DNA of 40,615 bases from a virus. The stretch covers positions 1-40,615 of the IMG/VR virus record IMGVR_UViG_3300025853_000219. The stretch is one strand, 5' to 3'. This document shows positions 249 to 15,846 of this stretch, piece by piece. The translations under genes were made by a program, and so were the position numbers. The notes under the pieces are model-generated. The model made no database searches, was not told the DNA's origin, and was given only the letters and a program-made list of their open reading frames with translations. Numbering within the stretch: position 1 is the first letter of the stretch; each line of letters begins with the position of its first letter.

Positions 249-770
249 TTACTTGAAAATTTTCTTTAGGTCTTTAACCTCAAACAATCCGCCCATGTCA
301 TCTTCACCGCCCATGTCATCAACAGGAGCTTCTTCTTCACCACCCTCTTCAGGTTCTTCCTCTTTTGCATCACTTGTGGTTGCTTTCAACTGTTTGTCGT
401 ATTGATTTTGATCATCTAATTCATCGCTTTCACGATTATGTGGAATTTCATCATCCAAATCAACAGAATCAGCTTCCTCTTTATCATCCTCGATTTCAGA
501 AGTTTTAGCTTTAACCGAAATGTCTAAATTCTTAATCAAATCAGCAGTCAAACTATCCACTACAGTTTGATCAACTCCAGTTAAAGCACCGGAATTAATT
601 AAAGTCTTAATAGCACCAGCAATAATTCCTTGTGCTTTCTTTGGATTTAAACCAACAGGAGCATTAGGATCTGTTATCTGTGGTTGAGGTTGTTCTTGTG
701 ATTCAAATAAACGTTTTCTTTGTATACGTAACTCTTCGTTAATTATTTTTTTTAAGTCTGATTTTTTCAT
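249..770 (-). CDS. Acidic protein with capsid-targeting-like leader
   Basis: This is a 173-residue protein of unknown function. Residues 1-12, MKKSDLKKIINE, match the leader pattern shared by several neighbours: a basic start, hydrophobic residues and a terminal [I/L]-x-E. A Pro/Gln linker and a possibly helical segment (about 45-85) follow. The C-terminal half is very acidic, rich in Glu/Asp and Gly-Gly, and ends in a short basic tail (LKKIFK). A low-complexity acidic body behind such a leader resembles internal or core proteins of T4-type heads. It starts 11 nt after the previous stop with the position-locked ATATTTAT box before ATG. Packaging in the head is an inference. Confidence 0.8.
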   Translation of the reverse strand: MKKSDLKKIINEELRIQRKRLFESQEQPQPQITDPNAPVGLNPKKAQGIIAGAIKTLINSGALTGVDQTVVDSLTADLIKNLDISVKAKTSEIEDDKEEADSVDLDDEIPHNRESDELDDQNQYDKQLKATTSDAKEEEPEEGGEEEAPVDDMGGEDDMGGLFEVKDLKKIFK

Positions 771-774
771 ATTA

Positions 775-782
775 ATAAATAT
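775..782 (-). promoter_or_regulatory. ATATTTAT box four bases before ATG of the 770 gene
   Basis: Coding-strand ATATTTAT spans -12 to -5 relative to the ATG at 770 and directly follows the stop codon of the preceding gene. There is no Shine-Dalgarno sequence. It is one of nine such elements with identical spacing in the window. It could be the -10 element of a late promoter or a translation-start signal. Confidence 0.5.
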
Positions 783-1846
783 TACATTTTTGCAAAATAT
801 CTTCTTTGTAGTCTTTCTGCTACCGTATAACCTAATTCATCAGCAGAGTTCTTTAAAACATCAATAGCATTTCCTAAATGATCCCGACGTATCATTAAAT
901 TATGTTTGCCGTTGTTATATCCCATCTTAGAATCAACGCCACATTCTTTTAAACGATAAGCATACCCATTTATAGCGGAGTAATCTTCACTTATAAATCC
1001 ATTTACATACTCTTCCTCAAAAACAGACTCATTTACAGGTTTTGATTTTGGTTTCATATCAATTTCATATACAGTTCCATCAGCACCCAAAATTTCACCA
1101 TGCCAACCGTCTAATTTACTGTGTGAGGTCAATACTTTGTCAACCGTAGGTAACTTTTCCATCGATGTGATGATTGAATTCATGCTAGTTGATATTTTTT
1201 TAACATCCATCATTTCTTCCAACGATTCTTTTATTATTTCTTTTAATTGTTCTTTCATATTATCCAAAGGTAATCCAACCTGTTGTAATTTATCTTCCCA
1301 TTTTTGTTTCCATCCAATATCTGACAATTTTAATCCAGCTTCTTTAAATTTAGAAGACCATAATTTGCTCCATTCTTGACTTTCATTATAGTCAAATCCA
1401 GTATAATCGGGTTTAACAAATTGCCATTTGTGGTGATATATTTGACCAACTTTACGAAGGCCTGTTTTTTCTTTATTTAAATCCACTGAGTAACCGTAAT
1501 CAACAAGGGGTTCTCTTGCTGAATCAAAGTCGGAACTCTGTAAAAAACTAATTTTGTTTTCTTTTGGGGAATATTTGATTATATTGTATGTTTTGATGTC
1601 ATCTCCAATTAATGATAATGCTTTGGATAATACATCGGGTGGAACTATATCATCAACATACGTCTTGTGAAAATACAATGCACCTCCAATGTATTTGCCA
1701 ACTCCATATTGTTTTCTTAAATTTTCATCAATTTTTTCAAAAGTCTCTGGATCACGATCTTGTTTATTAGCAGTAGCATAATAAACTTTCTTTCCCGCTT
1801 CTTTTCCATATTGATCTTGAAATTTCTTTATGATGTCTTTTGGCAT
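782..1846 (-). CDS. Hypothetical protein with internal leader-like motif
   Basis: This is a 354-residue protein. Residues 1-40 (basic helix, then KKVYYATANKQDRDPETFEK) resemble a short domain I recall from many phage proteins of unknown function. The middle is Trp/Lys-rich. Around residue 197 there is MKEQLKEIIKESLEEMM, which matches the [I/L]-x-E leader found at the start of neighbouring proteins. That Met (ATG at 1258) has a weak GGA 5 nt upstream and could be an internal start giving about 158 residues. The C-terminus looks like a compact domain with LMIRRDHLGNAIDVLKNSADELG. It begins 4 nt after the stop of the upstream gene, so it is probably co-transcribed. Function unknown. Confidence 0.75.
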   Translation of the reverse strand: MPKDIIKKFQDQYGKEAGKKVYYATANKQDRDPETFEKIDENLRKQYGVGKYIGGALYFHKTYVDDIVPPDVLSKALSLIGDDIKTYNIIKYSPKENKISFLQSSDFDSAREPLVDYGYSVDLNKEKTGLRKVGQIYHHKWQFVKPDYTGFDYNESQEWSKLWSSKFKEAGLKLSDIGWKQKWEDKLQQVGLPLDNMKEQLKEIIKESLEEMMDVKKISTSMNSIITSMEKLPTVDKVLTSHSKLDGWHGEILGADGTVYEIDMKPKSKPVNESVFEEEYVNGFISEDYSAINGYAYRLKECGVDSKMGYNNGKHNLMIRRDHLGNAIDVLKNSADELGYTVAERLQRRYFAKM

Positions 1847-1850
1847 AACA

Positions 1851-2204
1851 CTATCCGTTTAAAATTTGTCGGTCTTGTTTATATTCTTTTCCAACCACAC
1901 GATGTCCGGATGCTTCCATGTTAGATACCACATCATCAGCCATTCCAAATTGACCTTTTAACATAGCAAGTGCTGCTTTAGGCCCCATCTTACCAAAATC
2001 AAATCCCATGATGCCATGTTTCTGACAAAACTCTTCCAACTCTTTTATGTCTTGGGGATCAAATTGAACCGTCTCAGGAACCTCTTCACCGTCTTGAACA
2101 CGTTTACGTCTCATCATCATATCAATTGGATCGAACGTTGGTAAATTAGCGGTCATCGGCGAATGACCTGCTGGATATGGTAAATTTTTAGTTGATAGGT
2201 TCAT
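1851..2204 (-). CDS. Hypothetical phage protein
   Basis: This is a 117-residue protein I do not recognise. It starts MNLSTKNLPYPAGHSPMTAN and has a Met-rich MMMRRKR stretch, an acidic region and a helical part with FCQKHGIMGFDFGKMGPKAALAMLKGQFGMADD. There is no signal peptide, membrane segment or leader motif. The start lies inside the end of the upstream gene (17-nt overlap with 2188-2880), which indicates translational coupling. It may be a small structural or chaperone protein, but nothing in the sequence decides this. Confidence 0.7.
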   Translation of the reverse strand: MNLSTKNLPYPAGHSPMTANLPTFDPIDMMMRRKRVQDGEEVPETVQFDPQDIKELEEFCQKHGIMGFDFGKMGPKAALAMLKGQFGMADDVVSNMEASGHRVVGKEYKQDRQILNG

Positions 2205-2880
2205 GTCTGTATTTTGGTTTTATATCTTTTTTGTCAACGACTAACTGTTTACTGAATTTCAACATTTCCTTCCATATTTTCTTCAATTCTGCTATTTTAT
2301 AATGAATTATTTCTAAAATAGAAGCTTCGTCTGATGGATCTATATCGTTCAATTGAATTATAGATTTGATGTAATGTGATCTTGCACTAGATCCGGTTCC
2401 ATCTATATTATATTTCTTATCGGATAATATATCGTGAATTATATTAATAATTTCTTCATCATATTTGTTTGTTGATGTCATATAAGATCTGACAGCAGAC
2501 AACATATAAGTCAATTCTCCTTTAGTTTTTCGTGGAATGTAAGAAATCAATTTTTGAATTATCCCATCGGCCACTTTTTTTCCAAACCGATCTTCAATTA
2601 TCTTCATCGTGTTATGAAATCCCTCATGAGGAACTGTCTCTTCGTCTTTTGCAAACGCTATAGGTTCATACCATTCATCCGATGGTAAAGAAACTCCACT
2701 AACAGTCTTTCTACGAAACATTCCAGGCTTCATTCCACGTTGTCGTATTATTTGACTTCCAACTCTTTTTTGTTTTCCCGTTTTTGTCCGCTTAACCAAA
2801 CTATCAGGTCTATGATTCCCCAAAAGTTTGTCAAATTTCAACTGTCCAATAGATTCGTCTATCTTGTAACGGTATTTCAT
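2188..2880 (-). CDS. Leader-bearing protein with HExxH motif
   Basis: This is a 230-residue protein. I chose the ATG at 2880 because it lies four bases after the conserved ATATTTAT box; the frame extends a little further but would cross the promoter region. Residues 1-9 (MKYRYKIDE) fit the short leader ending in [I/L]-x-E. At residues 85-89 there is HEGFH in the context TVPHEGFHNTMKII, a classical HExxH zinc-binding/catalytic motif. The C-terminal 140 residues are mostly helical and Lys-rich. A third zinc ligand is not obvious, so peptidase activity is only a possibility. The gene is divergent from the SWIM protein gene at 2915. Confidence 0.75.
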   Translation of the reverse strand: MKYRYKIDESIGQLKFDKLLGNHRPDSLVKRTKTGKQKRVGSQIIRQRGMKPGMFRRKTVSGVSLPSDEWYEPIAFAKDEETVPHEGFHNTMKIIEDRFGKKVADGIIQKLISYIPRKTKGELTYMLSAVRSYMTSTNKYDEEIINIIHDILSDKKYNIDGTGSSARSHYIKSIIQLNDIDPSDEASILEIIHYKIAELKKIWKEMLKFSKQLVVDKKDIKPKYRHEPIN

Positions 2881-2914
2881 GTATATAAATATAGCATAAT
2901 AACTATTTATATAC
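2881..2914. promoter_or_regulatory. Symmetric divergent promoter region
   Basis: This 34-bp gap separates two divergent ATGs (2880 minus, 2915 plus). It contains TATAAATA on the plus strand at 2884-2891 and on the minus strand at 2904-2911, each 23 nt from the ATG it points to. It also contains ATATTTAT (minus, 2885-2892) and CTATTTAT (plus, 2903-2910), each exactly four bases before an ATG. No Shine-Dalgarno sequence is visible for either gene. Confidence 0.6.
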
Positions 2915-3502
2915 ATGATCAAATTAAAAGACTTGTTAAATGAAACTGAAACTGAAATTATTTCAGAATGGGTTTCATATGATCAATTGAAATCATCGAC
3001 TGATCAAAATTTTCCAACTAGGTTACAAACAACCAAGAATGTTAAAACATCTCCGCCTAAATTTGTTATGTTACGTGATGGCAACGTGTCTTTGAAATTT
3101 GATTTTAGATCATTTCCATCTGTAGAAGGAAAATCTCATAGAGGATATATTAAATTTGCACCAGCTAAATCCGATGAAAAATCAATGATGGGTAAAGTGG
3201 GAATCTGGTGGAAGTCAGTTAGACAAAAATTTAAACAATTTGTTAATAAGAAAATACCGCCTCAAATTTTGAAAGGTGAAGATCTAAGACAAATGAAATG
3301 CAAAGTTTCATGTGATTGCAAAGATTTTAAATATCGTATGGAAAAAGCAAATCAACTTCAAGGAGCATCCGATATAGAATTTTCAAATGGCGCTCTTCCA
3401 AATGTAACAAATCCTACATTTGAAACGGGATTATGTAAACATTTATTGGGATGTTTGAATCATCTACAAGGTGATGTGGAATTGAGAGAAGAAGAAAATT
3501 AA
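2915..3502 (+). CDS. SWIM-type zinc-finger protein with capsid-targeting-like leader
   Basis: This 195-residue protein has a leader MIKLKDLLNE, ten residues ending in L-N-E, very close in layout to the T4 MKTYQEFIAE sequence. The C-terminal part has a SWIM arrangement C133-x-C135 ... C174-x-H176 (SCDCKDFKYR ... GLCKHLL), with a conserved-looking NPTFETG segment between. I recall SWIM proteins of this layout in many T4-related viruses; their role is not established, though SWIM fingers bind DNA or proteins. It is the only non-mobile gene on the plus strand. It converges on the amidoligase gene with a 27-nt gap. Confidence 0.85.
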   Translation: MIKLKDLLNETETEIISEWVSYDQLKSSTDQNFPTRLQTTKNVKTSPPKFVMLRDGNVSLKFDFRSFPSVEGKSHRGYIKFAPAKSDEKSMMGKVGIWWKSVRQKFKQFVNKKIPPQILKGEDLRQMKCKVSCDCKDFKYRMEKANQLQGASDIEFSNGALPNVTNPTFETGLCKHLLGCLNHLQGDVELREEEN

Positions 3503-3521
3503 TCAAGATCCGGTTTCTCTG
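3501..3521 (+). repeat. Direct repeat copy 1 flanking the amidoligase-kinase gene
   Basis: The 21-bp sequence AATCAAGATCCGGTTTCTCTG recurs with one mismatch at 5652-5672. Read on the minus strand, both encode an EKPDLD-stop tail. Here it belongs to a 13-codon mini-frame beginning MQDSNLSEKPDLD. It looks like a remnant of the 3' end of the 5650-5928 gene. Confidence 0.7.
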
Positions 3522-3529
3522 ACAAATTG

Positions 3530-5641
3530 CTATCTTGCATAATAATTAGCTCTTACGTTGTTTGTGAACCCAAAATCAATTAATACAGGTTCATCCTTGC
3601 CGCCTCGATTTACAATTCCCCAACTACTAGGTCTTACCAGGTCGCCAACTTCCATGTCAATATTTCCAACCAAATCTACCAATTGTGAAGCATACTCATG
3701 TTCCCACAATTCATCCATTCTTTCTTGTGAAATTTTATATGATCTATACGATGGCCCTCTTGAGTTAGGATTATTGGCAATTAAAAAAGACTCTAATTCT
3801 TCTAAAGACAATCCCAACAAGTGTTCCAATTTTTTCTTATTTCGATTGATGGGAATTGCCAACTCCATTTCAACCCAATATGGCATATCATGTTTATCGT
3901 CGTAATCAATAATGTTAGCAGTTATATCCATTTGACCAAAATATCCATCAGTTTCAACTTCGTTTTGTGCCAATCCTTTACCGTTTTTTGCTAACTTTAA
4001 TACCTTATTATTATCAATTTGAAATACAACACGAGAAGAACCTGCTCCTAATTTCTTCAAGCGGTCATTAGCGTATTTAACCTTCCCTCTATAAGAAGGA
4101 ATGTTATTAAATTCTTCCATAGAAAAACTTTTAGGGTAATCTTCGTTTATACTCTTTTTATTGGAATCATCAAATTTATCGATTAACGATCTTAATTTCT
4201 TATGAGAATCCATATTAGGGTTTTTAATCATCGCAAGGAACTTGTTACGTTTGTTTAACGGCATTCCTTTTAACGCTTTGACGAGTGTTTTTCTGTCATC
4301 GTTTTTGAAATATTTCAATCCTTCGACTCCTGTGTGTTCACGATCCTTCATATCATCTGGGGATATTCCGGATGGGAGTTTACTAGAAGATTTGTCATCA
4401 TCGAATATAATTTCAATCTTTCCTCCTGGAATACGTTTTAATTTAACCACATTGCCTTTTTCTCCAAAAACAACATCCTTGCGTCTTTTGGCAACATGAG
4501 GCAAAACCAAAAAATATTCAATCCATTTTAAAAATTTCTTTGGTTTGGAAATGATCTGTGATGAAAAATATCTAAATTCAATAGTTCCTTGTTTAACGAA
4601 TGCTGTTGTGTTTGTTCCAAAATATTTTCCAATATCTTTTACTATTTGCAATAACTCAATTTCTGAAACAAACGTTGACTGTTTAAAATGGTTTTTTAAT
4701 ATATGATATAACTTTAAATGTAAAACGTCATTTAAATTAGCCCAAGAAGTAAATTTTCTGTCTGGAGAAATATCTTTCTTTATCTTGTCTTCATCAACTA
4801 ACGTAGCCATAACAAGAGAATCAAACCAGTTAAGATCAGGCACACCAACATGAACATGAGCAGAAGAGCCACCGTGAACTTTGAAATTATCGTGAATAAA
4901 TTTCATTAACTTTACCAACAACGGAAAATCCTTTTTAGTCAAGTGTCTACTAGCAACTTCAACCATATTGTCGTGTTCCGGAAAAACTGCCCAAGTGGTT
5001 TCGTCCGGATCATCACCAACAGATTCACCCAAATCCTCCAAAAAATTCGTTACCGATGATATAATTTCCTCGACGTTGTTATAGTCGCCAAATAAATTAT
5101 CAATGTCGTCAGAATCCAAATAACGATCCAATTGATTATTGGTAAACACGTTCTCACAGAAGTCATCCATATTATTATTTTTTTCAAAATGCTCCCATTT
5201 ATTGTAAATTTCCTCAACCTCATCTCGTTTGACATCCCATTTCTCTAAATCAATTTTGTATTCTTCTTTTGAATCGTAATCTTCTCTTTCAGGCTTAGGA
5301 TTTTCTTCCGTCCATGTTACAACATCAATAGGCCCATACGAATCATCCCAGTCGTTTACTGAATTATTTCGATTTAATTCAAATCTTTTTTGTTCTACAA
5401 AATTGTCATAATCATATTCAAAGCTACCGGGAAGGTTATTTTTTAAATACTTAGCGACAATATCTTTATTGTTGAACAATAAAGCTACCAAATCAATATC
5501 GTTTTTAGAAGAAAACTCAAACTCTACTCCAAATGTTCCACCGTCAAGAGTGGATTTGCCATGTTTAGATTTCAATCCACGTTTTATACTAGCAGTTTTG
5601 CCGAATGGTATTTTTTCCTGTATAATGTCTTTTAAATTCAT
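3530..5641 (-). CDS. Amidoligase fused to a protein-kinase-like domain, with leader
   Basis: This is a 703-residue protein. I chose ATG 5641 (MNLKDIIQE), since a TTG four codons earlier would overlap the previous gene and spoil the leader. Residues 38-42 are GVEFE; near 260 comes SSAHVHVG and near 355 TIEFRYF. These three signatures are those of the amidoligase_2 family (glutamine-synthetase-like fold, ATP-dependent amide bond formation). Residues about 525-703 look like a kinase fold: a Gly-rich loop GAGSSRVVF (near 533), Lys in VLKLAK, and LIDFGFT near 688 as a DFG-like motif. The two activities in one leader-bearing chain suggest a head-packaged modifying enzyme. Substrate unknown. The gene is bounded by 21-bp direct repeats. 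Confidence 0.85.
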   Translation of the reverse strand: MNLKDIIQEKIPFGKTASIKRGLKSKHGKSTLDGGTFGVEFEFSSKNDIDLVALLFNNKDIVAKYLKNNLPGSFEYDYDNFVEQKRFELNRNNSVNDWDDSYGPIDVVTWTEENPKPEREDYDSKEEYKIDLEKWDVKRDEVEEIYNKWEHFEKNNNMDDFCENVFTNNQLDRYLDSDDIDNLFGDYNNVEEIISSVTNFLEDLGESVGDDPDETTWAVFPEHDNMVEVASRHLTKKDFPLLVKLMKFIHDNFKVHGGSSAHVHVGVPDLNWFDSLVMATLVDEDKIKKDISPDRKFTSWANLNDVLHLKLYHILKNHFKQSTFVSEIELLQIVKDIGKYFGTNTTAFVKQGTIEFRYFSSQIISKPKKFLKWIEYFLVLPHVAKRRKDVVFGEKGNVVKLKRIPGGKIEIIFDDDKSSSKLPSGISPDDMKDREHTGVEGLKYFKNDDRKTLVKALKGMPLNKRNKFLAMIKNPNMDSHKKLRSLIDKFDDSNKKSINEDYPKSFSMEEFNNIPSYRGKVKYANDRLKKLGAGSSRVVFQIDNNKVLKLAKNGKGLAQNEVETDGYFGQMDITANIIDYDDKHDMPYWVEMELAIPINRNKKKLEHLLGLSLEELESFLIANNPNSRGPSYRSYKISQERMDELWEHEYASQLVDLVGNIDMEVGDLVRPSSWGIVNRGGKDEPVLIDFGFTNNVRANYYAR

Positions 5642-5649
5642 ATATATTT

Positions 5650-5928
5650 TCAATCAAGATCTGGTTTCTCTGGTAACTCCATATCAAGTTCATTATATAA
5701 CTTGTCAATGTGTTCTCTAGCCCAACTTAAATACTTCCAGTGCATTCTGTCAGTTTCGTCTTTTTTGTTTTGCCATGTTGTGTTGTCTTGAATTTGTTGT
5801 AAAGTAACCGTCATTTGTGACAACTTAGCATTAGTTTCAAAATGTTGTTTTAATGACCAACCACCAAGAGCTAACGTTACGCTTAGTAAAAATCCTACTA
5901 ATAATTGTATGATCGTATTGTTGTTCAT
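5650..5928 (-). CDS. Small membrane protein with one N-terminal TM helix
   Basis: This is a 92-residue protein. Residues about 5-25 (IIQLLVGFLLSVTLALGGW) form a single hydrophobic helix. The remainder is a polar, helical tail with a possible coiled coil, ending EKPDLD. Its size and topology are like phage holin-type or spanin-type proteins, but no family signature is visible. The gene follows a terminator (5950-5972) and has ATATTTAT four bases before ATG, so it appears to start a new transcript. Its stop codon lies just inside the 5' flank of the amidoligase gene. Confidence 0.7.
   Translation of the reverse strand: MNNNTIIQLLVGFLLSVTLALGGWSLKQHFETNAKLSQMTVTLQQIQDNTTWQNKKDETDRMHWKYLSWAREHIDKLYNELDMELPEKPDLD
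5652..5672 (+). repeat. Direct repeat copy 2 flanking the amidoligase-kinase gene
   Basis: AATCAAGATCTGGTTTCTCTG matches 20 of 21 bases of the copy at 3501-3521, 2,151 bp away. It encodes the EKPDLD end of the 5650-5928 membrane protein on the minus strand. Confidence 0.7.
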
Positions 5929-5932
5929 AACT

Positions 5933-5940: not shown

Positions 5941-5949
5941 ATACGCATG

Positions 5950-6090: not shown

Positions 6091-7176
6091 ATGAAATTTA
6101 TTAGATCATCAAAATGTTCATTAAAATTTTCTACTAATAAGAAACGTAGTGAATTGGAATATGTGTTAAATGAATATTCAAAGGTTGTTAATTTTTTTAT
6201 TGAATATTTCTGGAATAAAGAAAAATTAGATAAAGGTTCATTATTAAAACCTATTGTTGATTTGCCACAAGAAACTACTTGGTTATCTGCACGTTTAAGA
6301 AAAGTTGCAGCTAGGGAATCAATTGATATGATACTAGCGTCAAGAGAACGATGGAAAAATAAACCAGATAAAATGAAGAAACCCACTCATAAAGGTGATA
6401 GAATATATTGTTCATCAACTATTGCAGATTTACAAGAATCTAATTCTTCATTTGATTGTTATATTAGATTAACATCAATCGGTAATAAAATTAAATTAGA
6501 ACTTCCTATTAAGAAACATAAACAATTCAATAAATGGGAATCTAAAGGTAAAAGATTAAATTCCTATGTTATTACTAAAAATTATATTCAATTTTCATTT
6601 GAAATGGAAGTTGATAAAAAGAAAACAGAAGGAAAAACAATTGGAATTGATACTGGTATTAAATGTCTTGCAACAACATCTGAAAATCAAAGAATTGGTG
6701 ATAATATAGAAAATATCATTGAATCCATAAAAAGATGTAAACAAGGAAGTAAAAGACAAAATCAATTAAGACTTTATTTAAAACATTATATAAACACTTG
6801 TGCCAAAGAAGTGTTTAAACAGAATCCAAGATTACAACGAATTGTGGTTGAAAGATTAAAAAATATGAATTTCAAAACTAAAACTAATCGTAAGATTGGT
6901 AAAGGTTTGCGAAAATCTATTGGTAATTGGAATTATAGGTATTGGTTAGATAGGATACAAAGAGAATGTGAAGAAAACCGTGTTTGTTTCACTTCTGTTA
7001 ATCCTATGTATACTAGTCAATCTTGTAACCAATGTGGTCATACTGATAGGACAAATAGATCAAAACAAGATACTTTTAAATGTGTTAATTGTGGTCATAC
7101 TGACCACGCTGACCATAATGCTGCTAAAAATATCTTGGATTTAGGAGTCTCCCTAGTTTACCGTAGGGGAAAATAA
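6091..7176 (+). CDS. tnpB: TnpB-family RNA-guided nuclease (IS200/IS605-type OrfB)
   Basis: This is a 361-residue protein with a complete set of RuvC-like catalytic positions: D187 in GIDTGIKCLATT, E254 in IVVERLKNMN and D341 in DHNAAKNI. A zinc ribbon C312/C315...C331/C334 lies between the last two. The length is typical for compact TnpB proteins. It lacks a TnpA partner, so movement would need help in trans, or it acts as a homing-type nuclease among the neighbouring endonucleases. The guide RNA of this family is usually encoded at the 3' end of tnpB and just beyond. It is on the plus strand, opposite most genes, and inserted in an intergenic gap. The frame is intact. Confidence 0.93.
   Translation: MKFIRSSKCSLKFSTNKKRSELEYVLNEYSKVVNFFIEYFWNKEKLDKGSLLKPIVDLPQETTWLSARLRKVAARESIDMILASRERWKNKPDKMKKPTHKGDRIYCSSTIADLQESNSSFDCYIRLTSIGNKIKLELPIKKHKQFNKWESKGKRLNSYVITKNYIQFSFEMEVDKKKTEGKTIGIDTGIKCLATTSENQRIGDNIENIIESIKRCKQGSKRQNQLRLYLKHYINTCAKEVFKQNPRLQRIVVERLKNMNFKTKTNRKIGKGLRKSIGNWNYRYWLDRIQRECEENRVCFTSVNPMYTSQSCNQCGHTDRTNRSKQDTFKCVNCGHTDHADHNAAKNILDLGVSLVYRRGK
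7151..7168 (+). other. Hairpin at the 3' end of tnpB (possible end structure or guide-RNA scaffold)
   Basis: CCCTA (7151-7155) pairs with TAGGG (7164-7168) around an 8-nt loop, inside the last codons of tnpB. IS605-type right ends and TnpB guide-RNA scaffolds often contain hairpins here. The RNA is not demonstrated. Confidence 0.35.
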
Positions 7177-7177
7177 C

Positions 7178-7194: not shown

Positions 7195-8847
7195 TTAAAG
7201 TAACGGTTTCCATATATACTTTAAATTGCCACAATCGTATATTCGATCATATCCATTCATTTGCATATTTTCATACTCCGTTAACTCAGAATCAAACACG
7301 TTTAACTTGTTTTTCAATAAGGATTTTCTGAAATTAAATCGATGGTGTCTTTTATTGTATCCGTTTTTAAAATACCAAAAATTAACAGGAGTAATTCCAT
7401 CCAGAACGAACCCTATCTGATCATACAACGTGTTGTCTAAAGAAGAAAATCTTCTATCAGCATAACTTGTAACTTTTGTTGGGTTATAAGTTGAAGTAAA
7501 ATATTTAAATAATTTACCAGCCGCTCCAACTACTCGCTTGGATGTTGCAAATCTTGATAATTCATATTCATTTTCTTTTGACTTAGAACCTAATGCTACA
7601 CGATTCTCCGAGAATGTCATAACAGAAATGAGTTCGTCTTCATGGTATAATCCCAATTTAATCTTGCTTTTGTCTGACCCTTGTATGTGATTTGATTCAA
7701 GAAAAGTTCGTTTCAACTTAGAATCGATTTCTTTAACTTCACATTTTCTAGCATAAACAGCCTTCTCCGTGTCATTTCCAATTATTGATTTTAATTTTGA
7801 TTTTACAACATTCTGATTATTTATCCATTCGTCTTCAAATATATGAATCAAGCGGTAATCTTTTTCTTCACATGCTATAGTCTTGTCAATGTGATAATCT
7901 TTCCCTACGTGACTAAATGAATGATAATAAAACGAATCATATTCTATTGCTAATTTTAAATCTTCTATTACAATATCCAACTCTTTACCATCGATTATAT
8001 CACGTCGGTTGGTTGAAACTCGATCATCGCCTAAAATACTCTTTAGAAAATCAACAATCTCATGTTCACATACAGATCCTTTATTCAATGGATAACATTC
8101 AATACAACGAGGAAGATGACCACCATCAATGTGATCGCTGAATTCACTGTCACATTTTAAGCATTTGAATTTATAATTATGTCTTCGATCGGTATTAATA
8201 TATTCATCCAATGAAAATAAAGGTTGAACCTTTAAGTTTAATTTATGTATTGTATTTAATTTATTGTAAAATGTTTTTTTGTAAGCGGAATCCATCTTAC
8301 TTTTAATTTCAGTGGATTGTGATGGGTATTCGACTCCGTATCTTTCCAGATTAGACTGTTTGATGACATCCTTAACTTCGGCTGACTGAAATACATTATC
8401 AACTCCATATCGATCATTAACTGTAGATTTTACTTTTTGTTTAGTCTCGTCCAATTGAGATACGTTATCTACGCCTAATGTTTCTTTGGTTTTTTTCTTA
8501 AATTCATCTGTGGTGAAAAAATGACCGCCATATTTTTCATCCATTGTTTTTTGTATTTTGTCTTTAACTTCCTTTGTCTTGGAAGCATTATCAACTCCAT
8601 ACTTTTCCAAACACGTTTTTTTAGCCTTATCCACATTTACATAAGAAGAATCTCCATAACGCTCTAATTTCGTTTTCTTGATTTTCTCGATTCTATCTTT
8701 ATCATTAGCAGTAAATGAACTAGAACATTTTCCACAACAAAATCTTTGATTGCGTGATTTTAATGCTTCAAATCTTTTTCCACATTGGTCACATGTTTTT
8801 TCTTCCCAAAATTTAGAATTCTTTTTCTTTTTGTCTTTATTATCCAT
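7195..8847 (-). CDS. Vsr-like (PD-(D/E)XK/EDxHD) homing endonuclease, copy 1
   Basis: This is a 550-residue protein (ATG 8847; a GTG directly before it is also possible). The N-terminal zinc finger is CDQCGKRF...CCGKC. Then come about six repeats of the type 'ERYGVDN-x-x-(Q/K)', each followed by a short helix, a DNA-reading module common in homing endonucleases. A second zinc ribbon (CLKC...CIEC) precedes the nuclease core with KELDIVIEDLKLAIEYDS, YHSF and LIHIFEDEW. The C-terminal 190 residues (HIQGSD, LGLYHEDELISVMTF, GAAGKLFKYF, SYADRRF) look like a GNAT-type fold. It has two close paralogues here. A host-type promoter lies directly upstream (8872-8899). Confidence 0.88.
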   Translation of the reverse strand: MDNKDKKKKNSKFWEEKTCDQCGKRFEALKSRNQRFCCGKCSSSFTANDKDRIEKIKKTKLERYGDSSYVNVDKAKKTCLEKYGVDNASKTKEVKDKIQKTMDEKYGGHFFTTDEFKKKTKETLGVDNVSQLDETKQKVKSTVNDRYGVDNVFQSAEVKDVIKQSNLERYGVEYPSQSTEIKSKMDSAYKKTFYNKLNTIHKLNLKVQPLFSLDEYINTDRRHNYKFKCLKCDSEFSDHIDGGHLPRCIECYPLNKGSVCEHEIVDFLKSILGDDRVSTNRRDIIDGKELDIVIEDLKLAIEYDSFYYHSFSHVGKDYHIDKTIACEEKDYRLIHIFEDEWINNQNVVKSKLKSIIGNDTEKAVYARKCEVKEIDSKLKRTFLESNHIQGSDKSKIKLGLYHEDELISVMTFSENRVALGSKSKENEYELSRFATSKRVVGAAGKLFKYFTSTYNPTKVTSYADRRFSSLDNTLYDQIGFVLDGITPVNFWYFKNGYNKRHHRFNFRKSLLKNKLNVFDSELTEYENMQMNGYDRIYDCGNLKYIWKPLL

Positions 8848-8871
8848 CACATACGGTTACTCTTTCATATA

Positions 8872-10239: not shown

Positions 10240-10246
10240 AAATATA

Positions 10247-10275: not shown

Positions 10276-10283
10276 TATATAAT

Positions 10284-10315
10284 AAAAAAACCCCTCAAAT
10301 TTAATTGAGGGGTTT
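10284..10315 (-). terminator. Terminator after the tail-tube gene
   Basis: The stem AAACCCCTCAA/TTGAGGGGTTT has a T7 run on the minus strand. It ends transcripts of the 10348-10836 gene and isolates the HNH genes. Confidence 0.85.
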
Positions 10316-10347
10316 CGTAAGTAGTTGAAAATGAGTGAGTTACAACA

Positions 10348-10836
10348 TCAAAATTGTAGCACAGCGTAGTCGTAACTGAGCGTAACGTTAACCATAACTG
10401 GATCTGGAGTTGCCCAATCCATACCGTTAAAGTTTGCTTGTGATACGAAAGCACCTTTTAAAGTCCATTCTTCAACCTTGTCACCGACAGGTCCCAGAAT
10501 ATTGAAAGTTACATCTTTTTTGTAAAAATCTGCGTAACCGTCTCTACCAGTCACACTTTCATGTGATAGACGAATCCACTCCATAACAGCTTGAGCTGCT
10601 GAAGGAACAACTGCATCATACATGGTGATTTCGATATCGTTCCATTCCGCTTTACCTTTCAGTTTACGGTAGATGTTCATATGTTCCATCTTAATAGTGT
10701 TAAGATTGATTGATGGTCTTGCAGCACTTTTGATCAAATACGCAGGAATTCCATCAATATACATGATGAAACGATTCTGAGTTTTTGGCTCAAATGCTGT
10801 AAAGAATTGTTCATTTGCTTCTAATAAATCAGCCAT
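10348..10836 (-). CDS. Tail tube protein, T4 gp19-like
   Basis: This is a 162-residue protein, essentially the length of T4 gp19 (163). It starts MADLLEANEQFFTAFEPKTQNRF and contains the typical tube features: RFIMYIDGIPAYLIKSAARPS, IKMEHMNIYRKLKGKAEWNDIEITMYD, and a final DPVMVNVTLSYDYAVLQF strand. It polymerises into the inner tube of a contractile tail through which DNA passes. An AAAGGA Shine-Dalgarno sequence lies 7 nt before ATG, and an ATATTTAT box lies about 34 nt upstream. In T4 the tube gene directly follows the sheath gene. Here they are 8.4 kb apart, and the tube gene is flanked on both sides by endonuclease genes. Confidence 0.95.
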   Translation of the reverse strand: MADLLEANEQFFTAFEPKTQNRFIMYIDGIPAYLIKSAARPSINLNTIKMEHMNIYRKLKGKAEWNDIEITMYDAVVPSAAQAVMEWIRLSHESVTGRDGYADFYKKDVTFNILGPVGDKVEEWTLKGAFVSQANFNGMDWATPDPVMVNVTLSYDYAVLQF

Positions 10837-10869
10837 TGTTTTTCCTTTAGGTTAAAGTTATATCTTATA

Positions 10870-10877
10870 ATAAATAT
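10870..10877 (-). promoter_or_regulatory. ATATTTAT box upstream of the tail-tube gene
   Basis: The element lies 33 nt before the ATG at 10836, and the intervening leader carries AAAGGA. The leader (TTATAA...AACCTAAA) resembles the one before the YadA-like fibre gene at 26364. Confidence 0.4.
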
Positions 10878-10884
10878 TTTTTCG

Positions 10885-10913
10885 TTGAAGTATTACAATA
10901 TAAATGATATACA
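10885..10913 (+). promoter_or_regulatory. Sigma-70-like promoter for the 10925 endonuclease
   Basis: TTGAAG (10885-10890) and TATACA (10908-10913) are 17 bp apart on the plus strand. The -10 box lies 11 nt before ATG 10925, which argues for that start over the ATG at 10904. Confidence 0.6.
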
Positions 10914-10924
10914 ATTATAATTAT

Positions 10925-12436
10925 ATGCCAGTTATTGAGCCTATGGGTAAACGAAAATCAGTTATAAAGAGTTGTAAGTATTGTAATGGTGAATTTGAGG
11001 TTAATTATTATAAACGTAATGTTCGTAAGTATTGTAGCAAGAAGTGTTCTAATGCTGATCCTGAAACAAAGCGTAAAATTGCGGAAAGTCAGCGTAAAAC
11101 GTATATTGAAAAATATAACGTAGACCATCCAATGAAGACTAATAAGGTAAAGGATAATTTTAAGCGTTCAATGTTAAAGAAATATGGAGTTGAAAATGCT
11201 CTGTGTAATGATGTTATAAAGCAAAAAGTTAAAGATACTAAGTTTGATAAATACGGAGATAGCAATTACAATAACATACAGAAAAGCAAACAAACGTGTT
11301 TAGAACGGTATGGGGTGGATAACATACGTAAAAGTAAACAATTTAAAGATAAGTGTTTTGATACAAAGAATGCCACGGAATATTCTACATTATTAGAGTA
11401 TGCTAAACAAATAAACGTTGAGTTGTTATTTGATATTCAGGAGTTCACAGGTTACCGCACAGATAACATATATTCGTTTAAATGTAATACGTGTGGTAAA
11501 GTGTTTGAAAATTATGTATATTCATTGCAGAATGTTTTCTGTAGTGATTGTGAGGTTGTTATAGATTATAAAACAGAACTATTTGATTTTTTAAAATCCG
11601 AAACAACATATAACATACAAACTAATGTAAAAAAACCTTTCATTGGATTACCGCTCGATTTTTATATAGAAGAATTAAACTTAGCAATAGAATTATGTGA
11701 TCATAAATCTCATTCAGAAAAAGCCGGTAAGTTAAATAAAACGTATCGTATAAATAAAACAAATAAGTGTATAATGAATGGTATAAATTTAATACACATA
11801 TTTGAATATGAATGGAAACAAAAAGCGGAAAACATCAAAAGCATACTAAGAACAAAATTAAACTCTAATAATATAAGAAAAATATTTGCTAGAAAATGTG
11901 AATTCGTTAAATTGTCAAAATCGGAAAAAAACGAGTTTCTACAAATAAATCATATACAAGGAAAAGATAAAAGTTCTTATGAATATGGATTGAAATATAA
12001 AAATGAAATTGTGTCTGTTATGACGTTTTGTAAAAGTAGATTTGATAAAAAAATACAATATGAAATAAGCAGATTTTGTAATAAGTTAAATACGTCAGTA
12101 ATTGGAGGAACGTCAAAATTATTTAATTGTTTTATAAATGAAGTTAATCCTGATACAATATTATCTTACGCTGATAGACGCTTGTTTGGTGGAGATGTGT
12201 ATAGAGAGTTAGGATTTGAGTTTTTTAAAAACACGTCACCTGGCTACCATTATATTACACCTGACTATAAAATGATTATAAACCGTATAAATTTTCACAA
12301 ACACAAACAAAAAGATAAACTTCAGACATTCGACCCAACATTAACCGAATGGGAAAATATGAAAGCTAATGGATTTGACAGAATATGGGATTGTGGAAAT
12401 TTGAAATGGGTGTATACAAAAAAACCGTTGAAATAA
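10925..12436 (+). CDS. Vsr-like homing endonuclease, copy 2 (divergent)
   Basis: This is a 503-residue protein when started at MPVIEPMG; the in-frame ATG at 10904 lies inside the promoter. Domain order matches its paralogues: zinc finger CKYCNGEF...CSKKC, YGV-type repeats, second ribbon FKCNTCGKVF...CSDC, nuclease core LPLDFYIEELNLAIELCD with HSEK and LIHIFEYEW, and the C-terminal domain (HIQGKD, GGTSKLFNCF, SYADRRL, MKANGFDRIWDCGNLKW). It has fewer repeats than the others. The core differs from the relatives at FNGNYWHSE-type positions (CDHKSHSE) and EDEW (EYEW), so activity is less certain. It is on the plus strand, next to the tube gene start. Confidence 0.87.
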   Translation: MPVIEPMGKRKSVIKSCKYCNGEFEVNYYKRNVRKYCSKKCSNADPETKRKIAESQRKTYIEKYNVDHPMKTNKVKDNFKRSMLKKYGVENALCNDVIKQKVKDTKFDKYGDSNYNNIQKSKQTCLERYGVDNIRKSKQFKDKCFDTKNATEYSTLLEYAKQINVELLFDIQEFTGYRTDNIYSFKCNTCGKVFENYVYSLQNVFCSDCEVVIDYKTELFDFLKSETTYNIQTNVKKPFIGLPLDFYIEELNLAIELCDHKSHSEKAGKLNKTYRINKTNKCIMNGINLIHIFEYEWKQKAENIKSILRTKLNSNNIRKIFARKCEFVKLSKSEKNEFLQINHIQGKDKSSYEYGLKYKNEIVSVMTFCKSRFDKKIQYEISRFCNKLNTSVIGGTSKLFNCFINEVNPDTILSYADRRLFGGDVYRELGFEFFKNTSPGYHYITPDYKMIINRINFHKHKQKDKLQTFDPTLTEWENMKANGFDRIWDCGNLKWVYTKKPLK

Positions 12437-12451
12437 AAAATCAACGGTTTT
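12421..12451. terminator. Bidirectional terminator between convergent genes
   Basis: The perfect 11-bp inverted repeat AAAACCGTTGA/TCAACGGTTTT gives T-runs on both strands. The last codons and stops of both convergent genes lie inside it. Confidence 0.85.
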
Positions 12452-12701
12452 CAGTAATTTTGAAATCAAGATTATATTCTGATAGAATATGTGATTTTAC
12501 TTTACACTCCTTGAGAGATCCTTGATATATTTCCATATAACCAATTTTTCTAAATTCATTTAATTGTTCAAGAGAATCTTCTGAATTACGAAATTGATCG
12601 CTGACTAAACACAATGCCTCATCGGGTGAAAGAAATCCCCTATCGTAATGGTATTCGGTGTTTATTACTATAAGTTTATGAGTGTTTGTTTTTGTCATCA
12701 T
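12441..12701 (-). CDS. Small protein, paralogue of 14290-14544
   Basis: This is an 86-residue protein of unknown function. It begins MMTKTNTHKLIVINT and ends YQGSLKECKVKSHILSEYN plus a short tail. The same frame pattern, THKL(I/V)...T near the start and GSL-x-x-C...K-x-IL-x-x-Y near the end, occurs in the 84-residue protein at 14290-14544, so the two are paralogues. There is no membrane segment or signal. It has its own host-type promoter and a strong terminator, suggesting early or independent expression. It may modify host functions, but that is only a guess from size and regulation. Confidence 0.7.
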   Translation of the reverse strand: MMTKTNTHKLIVINTEYHYDRGFLSPDEALCLVSDQFRNSEDSLEQLNEFRKIGYMEIYQGSLKECKVKSHILSEYNLDFKITENR

Positions 12702-12708
12702 ATATAAA

Positions 12709-12737
12709 ACATTACACCATAAATTTCAATAAGTCAA
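12709..12737 (-). promoter_or_regulatory. Sigma-70-like promoter for the 12701 gene
   Basis: On the minus strand TTGACT (12732-12737) and TAATGT (12709-12714) are 17 bp apart, with the -10 box 7 nt before ATG 12701. Confidence 0.6.
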
Positions 12738-12755
12738 CCTTTTTTTTTTAAAAAA

Positions 12756-13415
12756 TTACATTCTTCCCGTAGAATCTCTTGCAATAGACTGTCCCGCTGT
12801 TGGTGTGATTGATAACGGAATAATTCGTCCTCTACCTGATTGATATCCAACAGGAACATAAGTTGATGGAATTTTCTTTTTCTTTCTTAACAATATTGAA
12901 AATTTGTTAATCTTACCCTTAAATTCCTCCATTTCGTCACCTGAATGATCAGCAGGCCCTTTCAATTTCAGTGGAATTGCAACTTTCTTACTATCATCTC
13001 CTAATTTACCGTCTTGGAAATATATTGTAATCATAGATGTTTCGGGTGCTTCTTCCTCCAACACTTCTTTTATCAGTGGAAGTAACATTTTCTTTATTCG
13101 TTTATTTTCTGATAATTTGCGTTTTTTGTATTCAGCAATTACAACTTCAGTAATGCTCTCTTTAATTAAATTTCTGATTGATTCTTTCATTGTCTTTTCT
13201 CCTGATAATGCTTCTCCTAAATCGGAACCAGCTGCTAATCTAGCATTAATTTCATCAATATCAAACTGTTCATCATTTTCAGATGAAACGCTTGCCACAT
13301 TTCCGTTTTGAATTTCTACGTTATATATCTCTTCATCATCAGCAACGATTATGGTATCGTTGCCAATGAGATCGTTGCTCTTTAAGAAATAATTCTGTTT
13401 AGGATCGTCAACCAT
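12756..13415 (-). CDS. Hypothetical protein with internal leader and internal start
   Basis: This is a 219-residue protein whose ATG overlaps the upstream stop as TAATG. Residues 1-75 are acidic. At residue 76 begins MKESIRNLIKESITEVV, the same [I/L]-x-E leader seen at the N-termini of neighbours. Its ATG (13190) is preceded by AGGAG at 8-nt spacing, so a second product of 144 residues (12756-13190) is likely. A second similar helix (LLPLIKEVLEEE) follows. The C-terminal 100 residues are beta-rich with MITIYFQDGKLGDDSKKVAIPLKLKG and a Gly/Arg tail. Function unknown; a head-internal or scaffold-type role is inferred from the leader. Confidence 0.8.
   Translation of the reverse strand: MVDDPKQNYFLKSNDLIGNDTIIVADDEEIYNVEIQNGNVASVSSENDEQFDIDEINARLAAGSDLGEALSGEKTMKESIRNLIKESITEVVIAEYKKRKLSENKRIKKMLLPLIKEVLEEEAPETSMITIYFQDGKLGDDSKKVAIPLKLKGPADHSGDEMEEFKGKINKFSILLRKKKKIPSTYVPVGYQSGRGRIIPLSITPTAGQSIARDSTGRM
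13188..13204 (-). promoter_or_regulatory. Internal ribosome binding site and start
   Basis: Within the 12756-13415 gene, AGGAG lies 8 nt before an in-frame ATG at 13190 that begins MKESIRNLIKES. It is a better Shine-Dalgarno sequence than the one at the full-length start. Confidence 0.55.
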
Positions 13416-14254
13416 TATACCAATCCAGCTTTTTGTAATGTTAAATGAATAGTTTTCCTAGCAGAAGCGTCATTTAAATATGCTTCTGATAAATCTTCTA
13501 CAATATCACCCCATTGTTTACCAGCAGGAGAAGAAGTATATTCTTCAGCAAGTTCCATCAATAAAGAAGACTGTAAATGTTGTAATGTATTAAATAACTC
13601 ATTACGACTTAAATCACTTTGAACTTCACTTACAATTTCTTGATCTGATTGTGGGCCAGAACGACTCATTTTCATTGTCTGTGGATAAACGATTCCACCG
13701 ACCATATCAAACGCTCTTTCGGAAATCAATCCTTTGTCGTGAGCTTTGTATTGGGTTGCTGGTTTTACAATTCCCAATTGTTCTTTAATTGTATTTTCGT
13801 TTAACGTTTCATTTTCGTATGATTGAGGTTCAGTGTGTTCTCCGCAATTTGAACAAATGTCGCTCATTTTAATTGGAGCACCACAACAAGAAGATACTTC
13901 TTCAGATTCATTCATAACATGATTTACGTAATCGTCAGCCTCACCACTAGCAGGAGTCAACATTTTACTTTGGAATTCATTCTTTGATATTTTTCCGAAG
14001 TGAAATTGATTTATCAAATCTCTTGCAATACTGATATCCATGTTTGGATTATTATTTTTCAACCAGTTATGTAAAGGTTTTGAATTTCCCAATCCAATGT
14101 GTGCTGAAATAGCATTCCATAAACTAGAAATTTTAGCTTCCGTTTCTTCGGAATTTTCATCTAATTTAGAAGGAGAACTACATCCAATGCTTGTAACAGG
14201 TTTAATGCCTGCTAAAACAAACATTCTTTCATTTAATAATTTTTTATCGCTCAT
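13415..14254 (-). CDS. Leader-bearing protein with small zinc ribbon
   Basis: This is a 279-residue protein. The first residues MSDKKLLNE end in L-N-E at position 9, matching the leader pattern, followed by RMFVLAGIKPVTS. Around residue 120 there is a four-cysteine ribbon, SCCGAPIKMSDICSNCGEH. The rest is soluble and mixed, with a helical C-terminus (SSLLMELAEEYTSSPAGKQWGDIVEDLSEAYLND). ATATTTAT lies seven bases before ATG, with AAGG between as a weak Shine-Dalgarno sequence. The stop overlaps the next gene as TAATG, so the two are translationally coupled. I do not recognise the family; packaging in the head is inferred. Confidence 0.78.
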   Translation of the reverse strand: MSDKKLLNERMFVLAGIKPVTSIGCSSPSKLDENSEETEAKISSLWNAISAHIGLGNSKPLHNWLKNNNPNMDISIARDLINQFHFGKISKNEFQSKMLTPASGEADDYVNHVMNESEEVSSCCGAPIKMSDICSNCGEHTEPQSYENETLNENTIKEQLGIVKPATQYKAHDKGLISERAFDMVGGIVYPQTMKMSRSGPQSDQEIVSEVQSDLSRNELFNTLQHLQSSLLMELAEEYTSSPAGKQWGDIVEDLSEAYLNDASARKTIHLTLQKAGLV

Positions 14255-14261
14255 ATACCTT

Positions 14262-14269
14262 ATAAATAT
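14262..14269 (-). promoter_or_regulatory. ATATTTAT box upstream of the 14254 gene
   Basis: Coding-strand ATATTTAT spans -15 to -8, with AAGG directly after it. The preceding ATGC is shared with the boxes at 2885 and 5933. Confidence 0.45.
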
Positions 14270-14289
14270 AAAGCATATATAAAAACGAG

Positions 14290-14544
14290 TTAAATCTCAA
14301 CTATTTCATTGATGATTGAATACGAATCTAGTATTTTTTTATATTCGTTGCACTTTTCGAGTGAACCAACAAAACAATCTGTTTTCTCACAATTTTCAGC
14401 ATCATCAATAATTTTAGTCGCTAACTGATTTTTTCCGTCGTGGTTTTCTTTGTCGTAAATTACCCAAACAGCTTCATGAGCACAACCCAATTCAACGTCG
14501 GGAGTGTCATATAAAACTAATTTATGTGTAACTGTGTCATTCAT
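14290..14544 (-). CDS. Small protein, paralogue of 12441-12701
   Basis: This is an 84-residue protein starting MNDTVTHKLVLYDT. I chose ATG 14544 over an upstream in-frame start because it aligns with the paralogue and follows a TATAAT-like sequence. The C-terminal part CFVGSLEKCNEYKKILDSYS matches the end of the 12441-12701 protein. It is acidic, with three or four cysteines and no membrane segment. A TTGACT (about 30 bp before a TATAAT) is too far for a standard promoter, so its regulation is unclear. Function unknown. Confidence 0.68.
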   Translation of the reverse strand: MNDTVTHKLVLYDTPDVELGCAHEAVWVIYDKENHDGKNQLATKIIDDAENCEKTDCFVGSLEKCNEYKKILDSYSIINEIVEI

Positions 14545-14593
14545 ATTATATACAATGACACTCTTTTTATAAAAAGTCAACTATTTTTTCAAA

Positions 14594-15211
14594 TTAATTG
14601 TCTGTATATAAAATACTATCCAAAGGAACTTGCCCAGCAACAGCAACTTTCTTGTGCATGTCGTTTGATGCTAACGTATTGTCAATTCCCTGTGGGTAAT
14701 TGTCTACGTCACTTTTAGGAACTAACTTTTTAAATTTAATTTTATGAGTGGCAGCTAATGATCTAACTTGTTGAATAGGCAACTGTATAATGTTCGGATG
14801 TTTGGGATCACGTAATGGTTCTAACTGATCTTCACCATATTCAGCTTCTAACTTCTTAAAATCAATAGGAACACTAACCGCCTTTGGCTCTTTTCCTAAC
14901 TTCTCTAACTCATCATGAGCTTTAGGATAACGACTAACATATGCTGTTCCATCAGCAAATACAAAAATTTGATAACCACCGTAGAATTCCTGTAATAATT
15001 CAGATTCTTTCATCGGCTGATTGTGCCAACCTTTGATTTTTCCAGGTTTAGTTTTATAACGGCCAAGTTGTTCCTTGTTTTTCTTAGAAACAGCTTCTCT
15101 TTCTTCAGGAGGAACTGCAAGTGGGCTCTTTTTCAATCCATCCCACATTCCTTCTTCAATTAATTCGGAAATGCACTCTCTTATTAAATATTTTAATTTA
15201 TTCGATTTCAT
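14594..15211 (-). CDS. Leader-bearing hypothetical protein
   Basis: This is a 205-residue protein. Residues 1-12, MKSNKLKYLIRE, are nearly the same as the leader of the methyltransferase encoded just upstream (MKTQELKSLIRE), and both continue with C-(I/L)-S-E. After a linker rich in Lys/Pro, MKESELLQEFYGGYQIFVFADGTAYVSRYPKAHDEL forms a small domain. The C-terminus has repeated Pro/Lys segments. The start overlaps the upstream stop as TAATG. Function unknown. The shared leader with an enzyme strengthens the idea that the first 12-20 residues are a targeting signal. Confidence 0.78.
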   Translation of the reverse strand: MKSNKLKYLIRECISELIEEGMWDGLKKSPLAVPPEEREAVSKKNKEQLGRYKTKPGKIKGWHNQPMKESELLQEFYGGYQIFVFADGTAYVSRYPKAHDELEKLGKEPKAVSVPIDFKKLEAEYGEDQLEPLRDPKHPNIIQLPIQQVRSLAATHKIKFKKLVPKSDVDNYPQGIDNTLASNDMHKKVAVAGQVPLDSILYTDN

Positions 15212-15846
15212 TATTTTTTAGCAATTATATATTGACCTTTACGAACAGCATTAGGAAAGAATTGTTGGATTTCTTCTAAGTAGAAATCCAATGGTTGTGC
15301 ATTCTGCCATCCATCTTTTGTTTTTTGACCAACAAAATCGTCGGTTTGTTGAAATTCTTTTGATTTAGCAGCAGCATATACTGATATTAATAATTTACCA
15401 CCTGATTTTAATAAACCATGAATCGCTTTAATAACAGAAAGTCTATTTGATTTCTCTTTGATAACGTTTAATACATTAGCATTTAAAGCAACATCAGCAC
15501 CACCATTCTTATCAACCATTGCTAATACAGCGTTATTATGTTTATCGTCTCTATTAAATGGGTCGTATACTAAATTCTTAGTTCCTTTAATGGATGATTC
15601 AATGAATTCTGTAGCATCATCAAATTTGCCACCACCGAAGTCTAAAATTAGATCTCCTGACTTAGCAAGACCTTGTTTGACAACTAACCTATGTAAAGTA
15701 GGAACTTGTTTTCTTGATGTCTTTGCGCTTGAAAATTCTTGTTCCGGAGGATTAAAGTTATTTTGATCCACATCCGATTGCCCCATTTCAGTGATCACTT
15801 CAGATAGACATTCTCTGATTAAAGATTTTAGTTCTTGGGTTTTCAT
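15211..15846 (-). CDS. SAM-dependent methyltransferase with capsid-targeting-like leader
   Basis: This is a 211-residue protein; ATG 15846 follows the ATATTTAT box by four bases. Residues 1-20 are the leader MKTQELKSLIRECLSEVITE, with [I/L]-x-E at 12 and at 20. The rest is a class I methyltransferase fold: motif I D69-F-G-G-G, acidic residue D95 in LVYDP, then DVALNANVLNVI (118-129) and a strand-loop LLKSGGKLLISVY. The target (DNA, RNA, protein or small molecule) cannot be read from the motifs. The gene starts right after a terminator and is coupled to the next leader protein. Confidence 0.87.
   Translation of the reverse strand: MKTQELKSLIRECLSEVITEMGQSDVDQNNFNPPEQEFSSAKTSRKQVPTLHRLVVKQGLAKSGDLILDFGGGKFDDATEFIESSIKGTKNLVYDPFNRDDKHNNAVLAMVDKNGGADVALNANVLNVIKEKSNRLSVIKAIHGLLKSGGKLLISVYAAAKSKEFQQTDDFVGQKTKDGWQNAQPLDFYLEEIQQFFPNAVRKGQYIIAKK

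Follow-up and report, generated by a model that had tools for sequence, protein, structure and literature searches.

Leader-bearing proteins of the window

The window analysed here is the complete virus record IMGVR_UViG_3300025853_000219, a fragment of 40,615 bases that carries a T4-type structural module, mostly on the minus strand. An original prediction had proposed that seven of its proteins, unrelated in their bodies, share a short N-terminal leader ending in [I/L]-x-E, and that this leader marks them as head-packaged, injected effectors in the manner of T4 internal proteins. All seven N-termini are indeed present, with starts at 770, 2880, 5641, 14254, 15211 and 15846 on the minus strand and at 2915 on the plus strand. 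A single leader class for all of them did not hold up: five (249-770, 2915-3502, 3530-5641, 14594-15211 and 15211-15846) follow the core pattern hydrophobic-x-x-hydrophobic-hydrophobic-x-Glu with the glutamate at residue 9-12, which we call type 1, while the protein starting at 14254 bears a different tag, called type 2 here, and the one starting at 2880 lies outside the core pattern and has the IxE only.

As had been claimed, the bodies behind these leaders differ. Two type-1 leaders are short: MIKLKDLLNE precedes a body with a CxC...CxH SWIM-like motif, read from the sequence alone and without a Pfam match (2915-3502, plus strand; phrog_18980, 1.9e-13), and MNLKDIIQE precedes an amidoligase (3530-5641, minus strand; weak PF12224, phrog_7469) with a kinase-like C-terminal half (phrog_4301). 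Long type-1 leaders begin a minus-strand protein without recognised function (14594-15211; MKSNKLKYLIRECISELIEE/G at 15152-15211, slashes marking known or candidate cut sites throughout) and a minus-strand methyltransferase (15211-15846; PF13489, 8.7e-07; MKTQELKSLIRECLSEVITE/M at 15787-15846). The body of the former recurs in a protein of the related locus L090 behind a different N-terminus. The acidic protein at 249-770 (minus strand) starts with the type-1 leader MKKSDLKKIINE (approximately 702-770) and has a second candidate cut, RLFE/SQ, at residue 23; a homologue with 42% identity (L156:2883-3413) retains the leader as MKSSDIKKIVKEEIRTQRKRLLAE/AF. The weak leader MKYRYKIDE/SI belongs to a protein with a HEGFH motif (2188-2880, minus strand), which was recognised from its sequence alone and has no Pfam or other family match. 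The type-2 tag, MSDKKLLNERMFVLAGI (approximately 14204-14254), heads the protein at 13415-14254 (minus strand), resembles the C-terminus of the gp22 scaffold and is conserved in L082, L090 and G012. A search for close homologues of the proteins starting at 2880 and 5641 turned up only a record that is 100% identical across both.

A motif search beyond these seven, as the prediction had suggested, added two further minus-strand proteins, in which the type-1 motif is internal and lies at a domain border: the two-domain protein at 782-1846, with MKEQLKEIIKESLEE at residue 197 between its domains (approximately 1205-1258), and the protein at 12756-13415, with MKESIRNLIKESITEV at residue 76 (approximately 13131-13190). 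Most leader proteins have one domain; 782-1846 and 3530-5641 have two, and in the related locus L156 the C-terminal domain of the former stands alone as a protein that itself carries a leader-like motif (L156:3425-3841), and the kinase-like half of the latter is a separate open reading frame (L156:4939-5631). The junction between the amidoligase and kinase-like parts of 3530-5641 reads SINE/DYP, a possible internal protease site. L368:991-2016 joins a methyltransferase of the window type and the N-terminal domain of 782-1846 (phrog_16075) in one protein, which suggests that the two work together and indicates that domains are shuffled among these proteins. The window methyltransferase also shares 39% identity with one domain of a phage open reading frame of at least 1176 residues with a HENKH motif; this large protein, for which Pfam named nothing convincing, would resemble the injected 'polyvalent proteins' described previously (PMC5512222).

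Leader frequency and carriers among related phages

The tail tube protein gp19 of the window (10348-10836, minus strand; phrog_4542, 1.5e-25), itself without a leader, served as the anchor for fetching relatives. It is 62% identical to that of Microcystis phage Mel-JY01, 51% to that of Flavobacterium phage immuto and 41% to that of Rhodothermus phage RM378, and by these closest cultured relatives we place the window, which has no gp23 for a phylogeny, with the 'Far-T4' group of Roux et al. 2015 (PMC4360716). The loci retrieved from relatives, 89 in all, surround gp18 and gp19. In 242 protein clusters from these loci, [IL]xE occurs at about 1% in the protein bodies and reaches 5%, 11% and 8% at residues 5, 12 and 20, respectively; these positional spikes define a long type-1 leader with the consensus MKxxELRxLIREExxxxLxE. 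When the viral collection was scanned with a degenerate DNA pattern encoding MKxxELRxLIREE, at least 120 stretches matched, against fewer than one expected by our estimate, and among the matches listed these are N-termini of quite different bodies, often several consecutively.

For a quantitative comparison, we composed the expression M.{1,6}[LIVFMY]..[LIVMF][LIVM].E from the window leaders and applied it to 21 records, comprising 12 obtained via the tail loci, six selected for a strict leader, the window, Mel-JY01 and immuto. For all counts given here, each open reading frame was started at its leftmost ATG, no gene finder was used, and some records had been selected by the leader itself. The expression fits the N-terminus of 150 out of 2358 open reading frames (6.4%), compared to 0.7-1.2% at seven internal offsets; within the window it fits 5 of 37 (binomial p = 4e-05 against an internal background of about 1%). 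Altogether, the 320 leader proteins gathered represent 190 unrelated body clusters, and in an alignment of 133 distinct leader proteins conservation is confined to the leader, the informative part of this pattern-selected alignment being the bodies without conservation. Not all T4-like phages have the leader: it was found in 0 of 63 open reading frames in 45 kb of RM378, 0 of 44 in 49 kb of cyanophage Syn9 and 1 of 59 in two stretches of T4, so that the presence of the prohead protease gp21 alone does not imply the leader. A tblastn search of annotated phages with a 21-residue type-1 leader gave no match, which we do not read as absence, since such short queries are insensitive and immuto does hold similar leaders.

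The prediction would have been undermined by leaders at similar frequency in replication and tail proteins, a comparison that it withstood. With gene classes assigned by homology to annotated genes of Mel-JY01 and immuto, the pattern occurs across the 21 records in none of 168 tail, baseplate and fibre proteins, in 5 of 130 replication and metabolism proteins and in 132 of 1921 unnamed proteins. Three of the five replication matches are one orthologous family of 5'-3' exonucleases and were discounted as such; the matches in TerL (6 of 15) were counted as false positives, arising from a conserved helix within the domain (KDIIKEEYxKC...YFMKKYxxIQHP).

Given the surroundings of the leader genes, which in the window and in G012 sit among the genes for gp18, gp19 and the tape measure protein, one might ask whether the leader directs its cargo to the tail tube or baseplate, like the N-terminal signals of contractile injection systems. 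We consider this very improbable. The largest arrays elsewhere lie at a long distance from the tail genes (G024, 165-173 kb; G019, 101-104 kb), no tail protein carries the leader, and the features that the tags resemble, namely the N-termini of the capsid protein and gp24, the C-terminus of gp22 and the prohead protease site (see below), are none of them tail features. One stretch of G024 (165.6-169.1 kb) holds seven genes in a row that begin MIKLKDIL-like, flanked by three genes with long leaders.

Two further observations concern the position and reach of leader-like sequences. Four proteins have a type-1-like motif close to the C-terminus (G024:103172-103528, G012:30958-31458, G003:72260-72931 and G008:14292-14963), and the tag may thus also function from that end. 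NMNAT/cytidylyltransferase-like proteins encoded near TerL (G003:31474, G007:26651, G010:39711 and Mel-JY01:11243) have leader-like N-terminal extensions ending in E, which the homologue in G035 lacks; they are possibly head-delivered enzymes of NAD metabolism.

Prohead protease sites, the T4 register and a second tag

The prohead protease and its sites in head proteins, which the prediction had proposed to look for, were found in relatives, outside the window fragment. Of 13 related records, eight encode Peptidase_S77, the family of T4 gp21, and ten encode gp23; among records of at least 40 kb picked by the strict leader (n = 23), each is present in 10. All six strict-leader records of at least 99 kb hold both, a figure that stands without a background rate for random large viral contigs. 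In the major capsid proteins, a glutamate occupies the column of the T4 cut FLTE/AEIGG in 16 of 16 cases, and the site reads [ILV]xE/[AS] in 15 (for example QLIDE/SS, QLVTE/AS and QIVSE/AN), the remaining one, G027, having YLAE/S, that is, LxE. From this conserved site, the Far-T4 lineage would appear to have a gp21-type protease specificity of [IL]xE. The capsid proteins also resemble the leader at their very N-termini, which show hydrophobic-x-x-hydrophobic-hydrophobic from residue 3 or 4 in 15 of 16 cases, compared to 11% of all proteins, and three of them carry a full leader (MSLHSILNES, MNIKSILNES and MSEISKLLKES).

The short leaders are in register with those of T4. The N-terminus of T4 gp24, which is cleaved after MAKINELLRE, reads MAKINELLRE/STTT, and the residue classes at positions 4, 7, 8 and 10 are identical in this peptide, in MKTYQEFIAE of the T4 internal proteins and in MIKLKDLLNE of the window. 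In T4 IPIII, the first ten residues suffice for packaging, with residues 4 and 7 targeting the protein and residues 8 and 10 permitting its processing (PMC9026906). For the long leaders, the proposal of a cut after the first [I/L]-x-E needs revision. Cleavage at E12 is disfavoured, as the next residue is again E in 86% of cases, whereas 42% of the long leaders have A, S or G directly behind the second [ILV]xE, compared to a background of 20%; this enrichment, which parallels the capsid protein sites, indicates that the long leaders are probably cut at the second site, around residue 20.

The type-2 tag has the form ...[ILV]xE...RMxxLAGI, a sequence with which the gp22 scaffold also ends. At that C-terminus, RMxxLAGI or a close variant (KLANL, KLANI or RIAGI) is present in 15 of 15 proteins, preceded by a glutamate that mostly has [IL] at position -2. 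The 21 records contain 34 instances of RMxxLAGI, compared to 6.8 in shuffled proteins; 12 N-terminal tags of the MKKQILSEQFRRMQKLAGI type were found by pattern, the one in G004 being doubtful, and a type-2 DNA pattern gave 41 stretches, some of them in records that also hold type 1. A single protein has both tags in tandem (MKKPELKQIIKEEIQKILSEQQKRMQKLAGI). Furthermore, three pairs of homologous bodies carry type 1 in one member and type 2 in the other: L318:7162 and L264:627 (5e-10), L324:4807 of immuto and L336:9451 (5e-25), and L257:3598 and L352:2651 (4e-26). That the tags are interchangeable on homologous bodies argues that both serve one function. The idea of a T4-like portable signal on unrelated cargo is thus well supported, with the amendment that there are at least two such signals.

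It is conceivable that the conservation resides in the DNA, in a recombination cassette or a translation-initiation element that encodes the peptide incidentally. Several leaders within G024 do have near-identical codons (ATGATCAAACTCAAAGACATA), which indicates recent copying of a cassette in this record. Between records, however, the same leader residues are encoded by different codons, for example in G027, indicating that selection acts on the peptide; the leaders moreover follow amino-acid spacing and the T4 register, favour A, S or G after the second site, and are replaced by a different tag at the same place on homologous bodies. A DNA-level origin therefore has, in our estimate, hardly any probability, slightly less even than loading into the tail.

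Proposed loading of phage heads and comparison with known systems

The leader bodies of related phages include an Alt-like ADP-ribosyltransferase with the leader MIRLKNILLEE, encoded between gp21 and gp22 (L127:3925-5073; phrog_802, 3.8e-12); T4 Alt is the classic example of a head-packaged, injected enzyme. Further recognised bodies are a Tox-ART-HYD1 protein, a zeta-toxin-like kinase, a NUDIX protein, a 5' nucleotidase and an ATP-dependent DNA ligase. For many myoviruses, head packaging of ADP-ribosyltransferases and NUDIX proteins has been inferred before (PMC9503650).

These enzymes also bear on the question of whether the tagged proteins could instead be parts of the prohead core or scaffold, analogous to gp67 and gp68, which the protease shreds or frees and which act in assembly rather than upon injection. 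Many bodies are small and without a known domain, small proteins with leader-like N-termini are encoded next to gp21, gp22 and gp23 (for example MNVESFIKKLKESEEYREFTEE), and T4 IPIII has a role in assembly too (PMC9026906). Clear enzymes such as the Alt-like transferase, the NUDIX protein, the zeta-toxin-like kinase, the methyltransferase and the DNA ligase do not fit such a role, however, and the cargo varies strongly among relatives and is arranged in tandem islands, unlike assembly factors. We regard an assembly role as unlikely, albeit as the most serious of the alternatives.

We consider it likely that the leaders serve as capsid targeting sequences in head assembly of the T4 type, trimmed by gp21, and that the cargo is probably injected. 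By analogy with scaffolded capsids in general, scaffold and shell of Far-T4 phages would make contact through the C-terminus of gp22 and the N-terminus of the capsid protein. The amphipathic N-terminal leader would then bind the scaffold or core, or the shell, of the growing prohead, type 1 copying the contact made by the capsid protein N-terminus and type 2 that made by the gp22 C-terminus, and the tagged protein would end up trapped inside. Cleavage after [ILV]-x-E by the gp21-type serine protease would remove the tag and free the cargo, which, after DNA packaging, would probably be ejected together with the DNA and act early in infection. ADP-ribosyltransferases, methyltransferase, amidoligase, NUDIX and kinase-like enzymes and many small proteins without recognised function would constitute this cargo; its injection into the host is suggested by the precedent of T4 Alt and by the enzyme bodies. 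The effector set of the original prediction is in this sense partly supported, packaging and injection being its conjectural part. A more far-reaching proposal, to which we would give about even chances, is that Far-T4 phages load their payload in a modular fashion, through two interchangeable tags that mimic either side of the scaffold-shell interface, the capsid N-terminus and the gp22 C-terminus, that are both cut by gp21 and that allow effectors to be recruited via a leader of about 20 residues.

Several points weigh against head loading. The leader genes of the window are mostly beside tail genes and not head genes, the head genes gp20-gp23 lying outside the 40.6-kb fragment. Most leader bodies are without recognised function, leaving 'effector' unproven for most of them, and a few replication proteins and TerL fit the expression by chance or through an in-domain helix. 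The glutamate that follows E12 in most long leaders is unlike known cut sites. Finally, we found no virion proteome of any Far-T4 phage in the literature.

The surroundings of the leader genes in the window comprise a gp13-like neck protein (34584-35795; phrog_211), the tail sheath protein gp18 (19204-22347, minus strand; phrog_23, 8.8e-74), which has no leader, tail fibres and virion structural proteins. Three related large proteins break up this module (7195-8850, minus strand; 10904-12436, plus strand; 17342-19087, minus strand); two of them match DUF7487 and one also the Mom family, and they are likely endonuclease-like mobile genes. A TnpB-like gene lies within the module as well (6091-7176, plus strand; Cas12f1-like_TNB, 3.1e-16, weak OrfB_IS605), and TnpA was not recognised among the window open reading frames examined. 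A sulfotransferase gene (22818-23642; Sulfotransfer_3, 1.4e-16) adjoins the tail fibre genes. Six window genes (249-770, 2915-3502, 5650-5928, 15211-15846, 26420-28501 and 36231-38324) have TATTTAT exactly 11 bases upstream of the start codon; the element looks promoter-like, and its closeness to the start means that transcripts might be leaderless.

If head loading is correct, a motif of 20 residues would suffice to list head-delivered proteins from sequence in widespread uncultured aquatic phages, where most are now 'hypothetical'. Which molecules a phage injects along with its DNA could then be searched for and tested among about 190 protein families. From the second tag, with its mimicry of the scaffold, one would also learn how a growing head recruits cargo, a process mapped in detail for T4 IPIII only, and the tags could be used to load chosen proteins into phage heads.

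The concept of capsid targeting is already known from T4, where Mullaney and Black reportedly described the targeting sequence of the internal proteins; new are its scale and form in the Far-T4 group and the scaffold-like second tag, and we found no paper on either the type-1 leader or the second tag in these phages. To our knowledge, no N-terminal scaffold mimic of the type-2 kind is known in T4. The T4 sequence is present on IPI, IPII, IPIII and the Alt propeptide, and has been suggested as an evolutionary mechanism for loading varied proteins (PMC9026906). Both systems use an N-terminal peptide of 10-19 residues with hydrophobic residues at 4, 7 and 8, E10 and an [IL]xE cut motif, on unrelated bodies that include an Alt-like ADP-ribosyltransferase. 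Far-T4 phages differ in having the longer form MKxxELRxLIREExxxxLxE with two candidate sites, and, compared to the handful of T4 cargo proteins, about 190 body families, tandem cargo islands and a second tag type. The gp21-cut propeptides of T4 gp24 and gp23 are similar too, MAKINELLRE/ having the shape of MIKLKDLLNE and the [ILV]xE/[AS] site of the capsid N-arm being conserved, but gp24 and gp23 are shell proteins, whereas the Far-T4 peptide is found on enzymes and on proteins without recognised function. The gp22 scaffold of Far-T4 phages shares RMxxLAGI, with [ILV]xE just before it, with the type-2 tag, although the motif is C-terminal in the scaffold and N-terminal in the cargo.

Packaged enzymes that are injected, as we propose by inference for Far-T4 phages, are also known as polyvalent proteins and MuF-fused head-packaged effectors (PMC5512222, PMC9503650). 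Those are giant fusions, whereas Far-T4 cargo is mostly single-domain with a short tag. We know of no comparable shared short leader in phiKZ and SPN3US, whose cleavage motif differs from the Far-T4 one. Yet, as far as can be compared from the literature, in these phages, too, many head proteins lose a propeptide by cleavage behind a short x-E motif and are ejected (PMC10052503, PMC5694885).

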